Assembly: GCF_014066305.1 (NCBI RefSeq) | Contig: NW_023501090.1 | Span: forward strand, 1 to 64,000 | DNA length: 64,000 nt | Origin: Letharia columbiana | Lineage: Eukaryota; Ascomycota; Lecanoromycetes; Lecanorales; Parmeliaceae | Reading direction: 5' to 3' | In this document: in pieces, positions 16,647 to 42,182 of the stretch | Layout: every line of letters starts with the position of its first letter | Position numbering within the stretch: the first letter of the stretch is position 1 | The notes under the pieces: model-generated | The model's database searches: none | What the model saw: only the letters and a program-made list of their open reading frames with translations | What the model was told of the DNA's origin: nothing | Translations under genes and position numbers: made by a program

Positions 16647-19600
16647 TCAACGGCGATCAAAGAACCAACTGCTCCTCTTCCCGCCTGGACTACCGTTTGC
16701 CTCTTGCGCCTGCAGCCCACTCAATACAGGCAGGTTGGGACCTGCGCCGTTCATTTGCTCGTTCGCGCCGCCCCCTCGTAAGGGTTTTGCTATCCGCGAC
16801 CCTGCTCCTCCAAAGTTGAAACCGACAGGGTTGTTAGATGCTAATGACATGTTACGCGTGGAGCCGTGCTTGGCGGCTTCGAGTCGCTCTTTGACTGCGG
16901 TGAGTTGTGCTTCGAACCTGGAGAAGATGTGGTGGTCAGCTGCTTGCTCTGCATTTACCCGGTGCTACGTACCTGTGGTTCGCTGCCGTCAACTTTTCTT
17001 GACTATCCTGCAGTAGCGCCTCTAAACTCATAATTCGCTCATTTCTTGCCATCAGCTTCCTCTCCGCAATCGCGACTTCTTTCTTGAGACTTCCGTTTTG
17101 CTCAACAAGTTGTCTTTGCACATGGGTTAGCTGTTCTAGATTTCGCTCTAGAAAGGCCATCTTCTTCTGCTGTGCCCGGTTGTTGGATGATCTAAGCACA
17201 TTGTTATACTGCTCGCGGGTCTCGTCTAAGGATATCTCGAGCTCCACCACACGTTCGCAGCGATTTTGAAGATCCCGCATCAGCGACTTCTTCATGACGT
17301 CAAAGTCGGCGATCTGCTGTTGAACAGTCCTGCTGGTTGCTGTCGGTTGAGTTGCCCCGTTGGTCCTGGGAGCACGTTGAGATTCTTCGACGCTCATTTT
17401 CAGACGATGATTCTCCTCGTCCTTTCGCGCCAGGTCTTCTCGCATGTCTTTGATCATTTGAGCTTGTGTTTCCCTCCTGCTGGTGTAGAGTTCTGACAGC
17501 CTGCTCTTGACCTCGTCGATGTCCGCTTCAGAGAGGTTGCGCTCCATTAGCTCTTCGTACTCCTGTTCGACGGTCGCTAGTCGCTCAACAAGATCTCTTC
17601 TTCGGTCTCGATCATCACCTAGCTCGGTTGTGGCATTCGAGCTCACATCCGCTTGCCGAACGATACCTTCCGCTTCGACCAGTCTGATCCTCAGTTCCTG
17701 CAGCTCGTTAGGCGCAATCATCTCTCCCGCAGCACTAGTCTCATGAAGGGCATCGACCTGTTGTATGCATCTTCGGATCTTGCTTTCGTTGTCTGAGAAA
17801 GAATCATCTCCCATCTCGAAGCCGGCCATCATCTGTGCCATTCGTTCCGCTTTTTTCTTCTCCTTTTCATCGAGAACACCGTTCGTCTCCTTGGCGCTCA
17901 TTCTTGCGTCAAGCAGCTGCTGCTTGACCTCGTCCAGCTCGGTGGTAAGTTCCGAGTTGGCTTCCTTCAAGCCGTCCATGGTAATGGCAGCCTCTTTACT
18001 CTCGAATGCTACTCTCTCAAGCTGCATCTTCAATTCGTTCACCTCGCTGCCAAGCTTCTCATTTGTTCTGCCTTTTCGAGAGCTGTTCTCTTTCAATAAT
18101 TGAAGCTCTTCCTTCGCCTCTTTTAAAGCCTGTTCTGCTGTAGATAGTTGAGACTCTTTCTCGGCCACCTGGTCCTGCAGCTCGTTTTCTCGTCGCAAAA
18201 ACTCCTCTCGCTCGTCCTTTTCGAGTACAATGCTAGGAGTAGAAGCTCGATCTCCAGTTCTCGATTCCGATCGGCTGGGTGTCTCTGACCTGCCAATTTC
18301 TTGCAATCTGGATGGTGTGCCTGGTCTGCCAGGACGCGACTCTGCTCGCGCACCGGCTACTCCACCAGCAGCTAATGCAGGAGCCCATTTCTCTTTGGGT
18401 ACTGTCTCCCCGCTGCGCCATGATTGGACCTCTCCTTCTAAGCTTGAGACGTAGACCTCATACGTCGTGACTTGGTTTTGCGCTTTCTTCAGTAGCTGCT
18501 TCATTTCCAGTGGACTGAGCTCAGCGTTGATCTTGGCCTTGTTCTTGATAGCCTTAGCCCTGACACCAAATCTCAGTGTACTTAGGGTCTCTTGATCGTT
18601 ATAGCTGCTTGGCGAGCAATTGATGATCAAGGTAGTCCTGGAATTACCACCCAGTGATTCTTGCAGAATCCGAGTGAGCTTCGAGTCTCGGTACGGTATG
18701 TGTGTCGATTTGCCGTCTGTGAGCGAGTTGATCACCATTCCCAGCGCGCTCAAACTCTTGTTTATTTTCTTAGCTTCTTCAAGCGTCTGTCCACTGGCAC
18801 CTGTCTTCCCAACCTTTTCGCTACCAGCAAGATCGACGAGGAAGAGTTGCCCGCTTTTAGCTGAGCCTGTCTCAACATTCTTCTGGGTGATAGTGATGAC
18901 AAAGATCGAGTGTGACCGTGAAGACTCTTGGTTCATGTTCGTCGCAGCCGTAGCCCTGGCAGCACCTCCTCTCCTCATGACCTCATAGACTTCTTGGACA
19001 CTCGAGACGTAGATTTCCAAGAGGCCCTTGACATAGACTCCCCTGCTCTTCTCTTCGTGTATCGGTAGATTGTCATTCTGAGGTACCAACAGATCCCGGA
19101 TTTTTTCCATATAGATCTCCATATAGCTAACCCGAACGGTGTATTCGATGTTCCCAGGACTCCGTAATATGCTGGTAAACATCTGCTCCACTATCCGGGG
19201 TATGATTCCTCTTTGATCCTCATCGTCAATATCGGCGCCCATCATCGTGTAGGACTTCCCCGCCCCAGTCTGCCCATAGGCGAAGACCGTGCCATTGTAG
19301 CCGTTGAGTATGTCGTCGACCGTAGAGCGGATTGAGAAATCGAAGACATCTGTTTGCCGCGAGGTTGTGTCGAATACCCGGTCAAAGGTAAATGCGCCGG
19401 CTGCTTCATGAGACTGCGATAGCGTTAGCCATGGTATTCAATTGCCAATGTTCCCTCAACAAACAGCCGTGGCAGCTCTAGGTACAGGGGATTAGTGCTT
19501 CCTCGCGTACATTGATGCTGCATGTATCATCCGTCTCGAAATCCACTATTTGATCTCCTCCACTCGCTAGCTCTGCCTTGTTCGGGGGACGAAACCGCGC

Positions 19601-19757
19601 AACCACTGTGCAGAGAATATCAGCTCTTGTATCGGCCGTACATTAACCTAATAGTATGTCGGTACCTTTTATTGTGTTTCCTGCATTCGCGGCGCTCCTG
19701 AAACGTTCGTGTCAGTAGGGGCTGCATGTGCGACGTCTTCCACGGCACTTACGCCAT
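16647..19757 (-). CDS. kinA: conventional kinesin (kinesin-1) heavy chain
   Basis: Plus-end-directed microtubule motor for vesicle and organelle transport in hyphae. Five exons on the minus strand: 19753-19757, 19666-19697, 19511-19605, 16973-19413 and 16647-16917, with GT-AG introns of 55, 60, 97 and 55 nt. The sum is 2844 nt, or 947 residues, the usual fungal length. The N-terminus reads IKVVARFRPPN; the P-loop GQTGAGKS lies near residues 91-98, switch I NQESSRSH at 205-212 and switch II DLAGSE at 238-243. A neck and long heptad-rich coiled coil follow (about 340-880). The C-terminal tail is Gly-rich and ends in DRR. No light chain is expected in fungi. RAD6 lies upstream on the same strand. 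The 2.4-kb exon is free of lesions. Confidence 0.97.
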
Positions 19758-30531: not shown

Positions 30532-31452
30532 TCAAGCTGAGATACGAGTATTGTTGTCCTCGAAATCGTCACCCCTTGTCGTTGTGGCCAATCTGGCCTG
30601 AAATCTTCGTGCTTGTTTTCCACTATCTCCCTTGTGTTTTGCCTGATCTTTCATCATTTCCTTATACCAATCCGGAGCCAACTGTGGATATTCAGTCCAG
30701 CACTTCTCGCTGAGATGACCGGTAGATCCACAGTGGTCACAGGGCTCTTTTTCCTTGCCTTTCCCCTGGAATCCTGCCTTAAAAAATCGAGCGGAGTCTT
30801 GGGAGTGGAGGGCTTGGTTGTGTTGACGATTGGCTTCGAGAACCATTTGGCGTGCTTTTTCAGCTGTGATTGAGGGCGTAACAGCCCAAATTTGAATGAG
30901 ATACTGGTATTCCTGAGGTAATGATATGGAGAGACAGAGAATCGTACGGTTATTCGTATCGAGTGTGACCTTTGTGGCATCGATTTTCTCTTCGAGAACC
31001 TTGATGTGAGTAAGATACTCGGGTATTGTTTTGAATGCTTTGAATTGAAGCGTGTAGTACTCTTTTGAGAGACGCATGAACTCGGAGAATCCCGTGGGCT
31101 GGAGTATGGTTCGAAGTCTTGTGAGCATGAGGTAGCCGTCATTGAATTCGGCCTCCGTAAGCTTCTGTTGAACACCTGGACTGATCGTTGGAGTCATAAG
31201 ATCGGCTGCTTCCTGGGATTTCTCTTCCCAGTCCTTCATTGCCTTCTCTTGTTTCTTGGTGATTGGTGGAGATGTCTCCGTATCTGTACTGGTTGTTGCC
31301 GTAGTGACTGTGTCTTCATTATACTCTCCTTGAGTGTATTTCCAAAGCTTCTTTGAACGAAGCTCTGCACGAATGTTGACGAACCATGATCCGAAATTCT
31401 CCTCGGTAAGGTGTTCCATTTGACGTGTTGTTCCACTGTCTTTCGTGGACAT
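30532..31452 (-). CDS. Copia-type Gag polyprotein
   Basis: A 306-residue intact ORF. Residues about 10-210 resemble the Gag domain of Copia elements (UBN2/gag-polypeptide type): N-terminal LTEENFGSWFVNIRAEL, a helical core with TILQPTGFSEFMRLSKEYY and LSISLPQEYQYLI. A CCHC zinc knuckle follows at residues 238-251 (CDHCGSTGHLSEKC). The last 55 residues are basic and polar. The stop comes 25 nt before the 3' LTR, so no pol frame ever follows. It would form a capsid particle and package RNA (family knowledge). Confidence 0.9.
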   Translation of the reverse strand: MSTKDSGTTRQMEHLTEENFGSWFVNIRAELRSKKLWKYTQGEYNEDTVTTATTSTDTETSPPITKKQEKAMKDWEEKSQEAADLMTPTISPGVQQKLTEAEFNDGYLMLTRLRTILQPTGFSEFMRLSKEYYTLQFKAFKTIPEYLTHIKVLEEKIDATKVTLDTNNRTILCLSISLPQEYQYLIQIWAVTPSITAEKARQMVLEANRQHNQALHSQDSARFFKAGFQGKGKEKEPCDHCGSTGHLSEKCWTEYPQLAPDWYKEMMKDQAKHKGDSGKQARRFQARLATTTRGDDFEDNNTRISA

Positions 31453-41459: not shown

Positions 41460-42020
41460 TTGGGTTGATGGAGGTTAGGACGGGAGTGGGTGAGGTTGGG
41501 AGGGAGTACGGGAGTGAGGTGGGAATCATGTAGTAATGTTTATACTTAATACGACCCCAACGTCAATCAACTCCTGAAAAGCGGCACCCTACTCACGTCT
41601 TTGCGTTTTGCAAGACCAGTGGCTGCCCCAAGCTGGCGAATCTGGGAGATATAGTGTTTGAATGGCACATGCTGATTCATAAGACATCGACGTTTTAGGG
41701 CGTGCATGACGACTTGGTTCATCCAGACCCAGGGCCTGCTGATTGTTCCATCCTATCTATCGTCTTTCGCGTCTGCCGAGATATACATCTTGCCAACGGC
41801 TTCTGCAAAATTCTTTCTACGTCAAATTAGCATTTGATGCTTTTCGTAAGAGCCAACTTACCGTGTTTGGTTGGTAATTCACATAGGTCGGCCATTGCCA
41901 TGATCTCCACTCATCGTGACATTCTACGAGTAGCGTTTGACGGGACCACCTGAGATTTCCTGGCTTCCACAACATTCTAGGTTATAATTAGAAATAGTGA
42001 CAGGAGTCCAACGCACCGCA
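41460..42020. other. intergenic region
   Basis: No gene seen between the secreted protein and the tRNA. Confidence 0.4.
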
Positions 42021-42161
42021 TCCGATGTGGTCTAGTGGTTAGGATATCCGCCTCTCATTACTGAGAGACTCCAGTGCGCGGATGGCCGGGGTTCGATGTA
42101 CGTGGTTAGAAATTTTCTGAGATGCGCCTGATGTTGACATCAAGCTAGTCCCCGCATCGGA
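42021..42161 (+). tRNA. tRNA-Glu(CUC) with canonical intron and a 51-nt T-loop insertion
   Basis: Acceptor arms TCCGATG (42021-42027) and CATCGGA (42155-42161) pair 7/7. The A box lies at 42028-42039. Anticodon stem TCCGC (42047-42051) pairs with GCGGA (42078-42082) around CT-CTC-A and C. A 19-nt intron (42058-42076) follows position 37, and its TGAGAG pairs with the CTCTCA of the anticodon loop, as in normal eukaryotic pre-tRNAs. The T-arm CGGGG-TTCGAT (42087-42097) is separated from T-CCCCG (42149-42154) by 51 nt (42098-42148) beginning GTACGT and ending GCTAG, with TTGAC 14 nt before the end. Removal of both segments gives a complete cloverleaf. The insertion splits the B box. Either a gene with an ectopic intron or a recently interrupted tRNA. 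Confidence 0.85.
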
Positions 42162-42176
42162 AAAAACACAATTAAA

Positions 42177-42182
42177 TTTTTT
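42177..42182 (+). terminator. RNA polymerase III T6 terminator
   Basis: TTTTTT 15 nt downstream of the tRNA acceptor end; typical Pol III termination signal. Confidence 0.7.

Follow-up and report, generated by a model that had tools for sequence, protein, structure and literature searches.

Probable spliceosomal introns in many tRNA genes and in the U6 gene of Letharia columbiana

The textbook intron of a eukaryotic tRNA gene is the only one in its gene, lies between positions 37 and 38 and is cut out by a protein endonuclease. Lichen fungi are known to carry short spliceosomal GT-AG introns in their nuclear rRNA genes. Introns are also known in fungal U6 (PMC5832005), and the available part of that 2017 survey names U3 and U6 as the sole small structured RNAs in which introns are known to occur often, describing GT-AG and, rarely, GC-AG introns with an RCTRAY branch site 6-36 nt from the acceptor, whose presence varies among paralogues of U6 snRNA and U3 snoRNA. 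In Cyanidioschyzon merolae, nuclear tRNA genes may hold several introns each, in the D-, anticodon and T-arms, and these are not described as spliceosomal in the accessible portion of the report (PMC9602550). The description of tRNAscan-SE 2.0 states that a eukaryotic tRNA gene has one intron at most (PMC8450103). In the literature searched, which extends to few subscription papers and to no preprints, spliceosomal introns were not reported for any tRNA gene. The inserts described here in Letharia columbiana share with the U6 and U3 introns their small structured hosts and their boundaries, and their branch motifs fit the RCTRAY consensus and the 6-36 nt distance of that survey; however, it is tRNA genes that they interrupt, as many as four times in one gene and mostly beside a canonical tRNA intron. 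They recall the C. merolae introns in number and in their presence in the D- and T-arms, but differ in their mRNA-type donor, branch motif, terminal AG and narrow length range. The introns in the rRNA genes of lichen fungi are likewise short GT-AG introns of a non-coding host RNA in the same group of organisms, whereas the hosts here are Pol III genes (tRNA and U6) rather than rDNA. The canonical intron itself is represented by a 19-nt example within the very gene considered below, but it is the substrate of the Sen endonuclease, in contrast to what we propose for the inserts.

The window, by which we mean the whole stretch of 64,000 nt analysed (contig NW_023501090.1, positions 1 to 64,000), contains on its forward strand a tRNA-Glu(CUC) gene at 42021-42161, which a preliminary description had read as interrupted by a 19-nt intron and by a 51-nt insert at 42098-42148; the letters are indeed found at this place. 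Exon 1 (42021..42057), which begins with TCCGATG at 42021, comprises positions 1-37 with the 5' strand of the acceptor stem, the D-arm and the anticodon CTC, as read from the letters, ARAGORN and the register test. It is followed by the canonical 19-nt intron after position 37 (42058..42076), given by ARAGORN as (ctc)i(38,19) on the form without the 51-nt insert, and by exon 2 (42077..42097; positions 38-59). The spliceosomal-type insert (42098..42148) separates T-loop positions 59 and 60, and exon 3 (42149..42161) provides position 60 together with the 3' strands of the T-stem and of the acceptor stem. The junctions read ...CCGGGGTTCGAT / GTACGTGG...TGTTGACATCAAGCTAG / TCCCCGCATCGGA, with the last letter at 42161. 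The same description had given the insert as GTACGT...TTGAC...CTAG without flanking duplication, which the letters and the unique register bear out, and had noted that it splits the B box; the cut falls after the first 8 letters of the box (GGTTCGAT), which are the 3' end of exon 2. A T6 run, also announced there, occupies 42177..42182 and is likely a Pol III terminator, and a motif scan located a TATA-like TTATAA at 41982..41987, 39 to 34 nt upstream of the gene. Pairing counts agree with the restoration claimed for the exact removal of the 51 nt, namely a 7-nt T-loop, a T-stem of 5/5 pairs and an acceptor stem of 7/7 pairs, the latter without any G-U.

The unspliced window yielded no match with Rfam at the gathering score or with ARAGORN, and ARAGORN recognised tRNA-Glu (ctc) with a 19-nt intron at this locus once the 51 nt were removed. 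The register of the insert is unique, no shifted deletion giving an identical product. Among 2697 possible deletions of 40-70 nt, 49 were accepted by ARAGORN; 20 of the 2697 have GT/GC-AG ends, and the single one of these among the 49 accepted is the proposed 51-nt deletion. The donor GTACGT conforms to the GTRNGT-like 5' splice site of U2-type introns, and the 3' end CTAG to their YAG. The branch-site-like TTGAC (42134..42138; its A, at 42137, lies 11 nt before the insert end), which is pointed to by the enrichment across the whole set of inserts, fits YTRAY and not the stricter CTRAY, making it a weaker branch site. The hallmarks of a transposon were sought without success, as there is neither a flanking duplication nor a second copy in a DNA search that skipped common words; in that search the insert with its 3' exon matched the genome once, which speaks against the possibility, raised at the outset, of a repeat inserted at random sites. 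A group I or II self-splicing intron was rejected: such introns have a catalytic core of a few hundred nt, the inserts measure just 49-58 nt, and the window is without an Rfam match at the gathering score. A fold of the unspliced precursor (z -2.07) was set aside and is not counted as evidence. That the insert is more than chance is indicated above all by 19 further tRNA inserts and two U6 inserts elsewhere in the genome that are built alike.

These were found by searching the genome (52.2 Mb in 161 contigs) with the Rfam tRNA profile and with B-box patterns. The inventory consists of 32 nuclear tRNA loci readable end to end, the window gene included, and is a sample rather than a census. The Rfam search gave 56 matches with 63 of 1723 candidates scored, many of them on a mitochondrial-looking contig; three of the B-box pattern searches hit at least 100 places, a T-run was a requirement of most patterns, and a gene whose B box is split escapes them. 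Since both approaches are nearly blind to a split B box, inserts in the T-loop are under-counted. The pattern YGTTCRANYCR...TTTT was dropped, as it gave 113 matches against 191 in the control. Before counting, we left out an odd Leu (L015), two loci of mitochondrial look by eye (L019, L024), a weak Ile tat (L021), two orphan 3' ends (L120, L141) and the site L129. ARAGORN called Leu(AAG) Ile tat and Ile(AAU) Asp atc, and both were assigned by hand from the anticodon stem.

Extra inserts occur in at least 15 distinct tRNA genes, which account for 16 of the 32 loci; none was seen in the other 16, as judged by eye and with ARAGORN, and the names of these plain loci, given by ARAGORN or by eye, are in some cases doubtful (L026, a second His; L014, Gly tcc). 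The phenomenon thus extends to at least 14 further tRNA genes and to U6. At least 20 distinct tRNA inserts, 19 GT-AG and one GC-AG, measure 49-58 nt and are distributed over the D-arm (10), the variable region (5), the anticodon arm (2), the T-stem (2) and the T-loop (1), the arms being assigned by hand. The T-loop insert is that of Glu(CUC). Ser(AGA), Thr(AGU) and Ser(GCU) are interrupted in the variable region, Leu(AAG), Thr(CGU), Arg(UCU), Lys(UUU) and Met(CAU) in the D-arm, and Ile(AAU) in the D-arm and a second time in the variable region. T-stem inserts are found in Arg(CCU) and in Ser(CGA), the latter at two loci with an identical insert, and Tyr(GUA) is interrupted in the anticodon arm, at 32/33 by hand. 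Gln(CUG) (L128, contig C62:134500-135100) carries two D-arm inserts separated by 5 exon letters, the second being the GC-AG one with donor GCAAGT, in addition to a canonical intron. The extreme is Lys(CUU) (L124, contig C33:162300-162900), where four GT-AG inserts, after nucleotides 10, 17, 27 and 45, stretch a 73-nt sequence across 289 nt.

After removal of the inserts, ARAGORN accepts all 16 loci, and in 11 of the 15 spliced genes its output also includes a canonical intron. The program is loose: it reported a tRNA even in the unspliced L011, L012 and L054, and as a filter on deletions it accepted up to 1992 of 3410, so that its sharpness for the window gene does not extend to most others. 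Pairing is complete in all 15 spliced tRNAs, with 7/7 pairs in the acceptor stem and 5/5 in the T-stem. The inserts are richer in AT than the joined remainder (64% against 46%). Their register is unique in 5 of the 20, that of the window among them, while 5 have one and 10 at least two equivalent alternatives; the GT/GC-AG ends are therefore partly a matter of choice in 15 of 20, where other registers yield the same product. The flanks of 15 of the 20 share 1 to 5 identical bases, mostly AG or G, as splice junctions predict.

The splice-site letters of the set are markedly biased. In the donors of the 20 tRNA inserts, G1 is invariant, T2 is present in 19 (with one GC), A3 in 18, G5 in 17 and T6 in 15. 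All 20 end in AG and 18 in YAG (TAG 11, CAG 7, AAG 2). When the two U6 inserts are added, CTRAY lies near the 3' end of 19 of 22, against a mean of 2.1 and a maximum of 8 in 2000 shuffles of the interiors, and the looser YTRAY near that of 21 of 22 (shuffle mean 4.8). This test is largely, not wholly, independent, because GT-AG ends and the restoration of a tRNA were the criteria by which the inserts had been selected by eye. The mRNA introns available for comparison are the four of a kinesin gene on the reverse strand of the window, at 19698..19752 (55 nt, GTAAGT...CTGAC...CAG), 19606-19665 (60 nt), 19414-19510 (97 nt) and 16918-16972 (55 nt); their donors are GTAAGT, GTACCG, GTACGC and GTACGT, all four contain CTRAY and end in CAG, and they span 55-97 nt. 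The tRNA inserts share their signals with the mRNA introns of this one gene, the 3' ends differing somewhat.

The same signals are encountered outside tRNA. The only U6 match (L142, contig C17:919100-919550; 47 of 3742 candidates scored) reaches 41.2 bits, below the family cut-off, a low score explained by the split of the gene. Insert 1, of 53 nt, reads ACGATACAG/GTTGGT...CTGATTCCAAACTAG/AGAAGATTAG and lies within the ACAGAGA box; insert 2, of 57 nt, reads GACACGCT/GTATGT...TACTAATTCCGCAAAG/CAATCAAAG. One of them ends in TAG and the other in AAG, and the spliced U6 is 106 nt long for 105 positions of the Rfam model.

We consider it highly probable, from the sequence signals, that the tRNA and U6 inserts are spliceosomal introns of U2 type. 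The reading of the window insert as a spliceosome-like or ectopic intron within a gene transcribed by Pol III, one of the two offered in the preliminary description, is strongly supported by the genome-wide set. It can be hypothesised that the spliceosome recognises a GTANGT-like donor, a YAG and, some 11 nt from the 3' end, a CTRAY-like branch site, and that in tRNA-Glu(CUC) it would excise the 51-nt insert and join the T-loop. The 19-nt intron after position 37 would be excised in a separate reaction, by the tRNA splicing endonuclease and a ligase, the established pathway for introns at that place. Transcription of the gene would most likely be by Pol III, relying on the upstream TATA-like element and the remnants of the internal boxes, with a stop at the T-run.

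We are less sure of the polymerase than of the spliceosomal nature of the introns. In an overlapping variant of this explanation, which we hold to be unlikely, the introns are spliceosomal but Pol II transcribes the genes within longer RNAs, the tRNA being released after splicing. Spliceosomes do work mostly on Pol II transcripts; the A-box region is interrupted by the D-arm inserts, which split or follow the A box, as the B box is split in the window gene, and an upstream TATA-like motif is frequent. However, this motif is about equally common in the 60 nt upstream of the intron-bearing genes, U6 included (12 of 16), and of the plain tRNA genes (11 of 16), against a background of 828 of 3000 AT-matched and 540 of 4000 unmatched 60-mers. 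Since it occurs at interrupted and plain genes alike, such an element seems to belong to the tRNA genes of this genome in general and could drive Pol III where the internal boxes are split; no such motif precedes 4 of the 16 intron-bearing genes, one of which is the four-intron tRNA-Lys. A run of at least four T within 25 nt downstream of 14 of 15 genes, the exception being tRNA-Leu(AAG), also argues against Pol II, with the bias that most genes were found via TTTT patterns. Moreover, U6 is ordinarily transcribed by Pol III and, in fission yeast, undergoes splicing.

Far less probable is the proposal that the additional inserts represent ectopic introns which the tRNA splicing endonuclease excises at a bulge-helix-bulge, as in archaea and perhaps in C. 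merolae, whose tRNA introns in several arms offer a precedent; the canonical intron that most interrupted genes also carry would be compatible with it. A 4-bp central helix, tested in two placements, was nevertheless fully paired in 1 of the 20 distinct inserts (that of Met), in a crude test without shuffled control, and the search for such a fold at the window insert, proposed in the preliminary description, gave 1 of 4 pairs in both geometries of the same test. Neither the donor, the branch motif and the AG nor the narrow length of 49-58 nt is expected of this endonuclease, and the same inserts are found in U6. The sites are spread over the whole molecule, which is at odds with an enzyme measuring from the mature body. 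In the window gene the insert at 59/60 is off the 37/38 position, which the separate 19-nt intron does fit.

Equally improbable, in our view, is that the interrupted loci represent dead or redundant copies which received insertions, translation being served by intact genes, although the split promoter boxes would be in line with it and an assembly of 161 contigs may be incomplete and the inventory is a sample. The clean interruption of a redundant copy had been the second reading offered for the window gene, and it is not supported by the genome search, in which the spliced tRNA-Glu(CUC) query matched its own locus only, no intact tRNA-Glu(CUC) being found elsewhere; an A-box pattern allowing up to 2 mismatches matched just this gene and one tRNA-Val. 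Likewise, no intact tRNA-Lys(CUU) was found, the spliced query matching just pieces of the four-intron gene. In the B-box searches listed completely (76, 11 and 48 matches; copies without a T-run are missed), the 3' ends of 12 interrupted genes are each present at one site, and that of tRNA-Ser(CGA) at two sites, both with the insert. Among the loci read, both tRNA-Lys genes, the sole tRNA-Tyr and the sole tRNA-Ile(AAU) are interrupted, and the fully paired acceptor and T-stems of all 15 also speak for genes in use. An artefact of assembly or contamination, for which one could invoke the fragmented assembly and the mitochondrial-looking contig C94 with its tRNAs listed twice, is hardly credible for 22 different inserts on many contigs and of one make matching the mRNA introns of the window.

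It is probable, as far as the genome sequence can tell, that roughly half of the nuclear tRNA loci read (16 of 32) and U6 carry spliceosomal introns, including the apparently sole genes for Tyr, Ile(AAU) and Glu(CUC) and both Lys genes found, that translation is spliceosome-dependent, that many precursors pass through two unrelated splicing machines, and that the introns spread by insertion into small RNAs made by Pol III. This suggests that the organism needs its mRNA-splicing machine for making tRNAs. The gain was probably by insertion at AG/G-like sites, and a possible route would be reverse splicing into small RNAs abundant in the nucleus, with subsequent conversion of the gene. A natural empty site is at hand for the insert of Ser(CGA), GCAG/GTAGGT...CACAG/GTTC: the paralogue Ser(UGA) is nearly the same around the junction and lacks the insert. 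The two Ser(CGA) copies (L125 on C53 and L126 on C81) have the same insert and nearly the same 60 nt upstream, and the pair probably arose by duplication after the intron had been gained. If this explanation is true, the spliceosome can serve Pol III transcripts at large scale, and split A and B boxes are tolerated. Intron gain could then also be studied in a natural setting, in hosts of 71-90 nt whose structure closely fixes the insertion point and with at least one empty paralogue. Such genes would be missed by tRNA finders, as illustrated by ARAGORN, which found none in the window, and by Rfam, which matched 4 of the 14 interrupted loci submitted.

Several minor observations accompany these results. 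The orphan 3' ends mentioned above, one Leu-like (L120, C7:984052) and one Ser-like (L141, C54:345261), have T-runs and no 5' half nearby, and may be decayed genes or genes with longer introns. A high-copy repeat (GGTTCGATTCCTAATGGCGC... / ...TAGTTCGTATTAGGTTCGATTCCTAATGGCGCTGGTACAATGGTG...) with a B-box-like core, seen for example at C2:231282, C3:376889 and C1:449841, makes up many of the listed B-box matches and was rejected as not tRNA. On contig C94 many tRNAs are listed twice, about 90.5 kb apart, with further copies on C110; C94 is perhaps a duplicated assembly of a circle. In the window, the kinesin at 16939-19245 on the reverse strand has as its closest named match a kinesin of Alectoria sarmentosa, also of the Parmeliaceae, with 94% identity, and a reading frame at 30532-31452 on the reverse strand, with a CCHC knuckle (CDHCGSTGHLSEKCW), resembles by eye the gag part of a retrotransposon.
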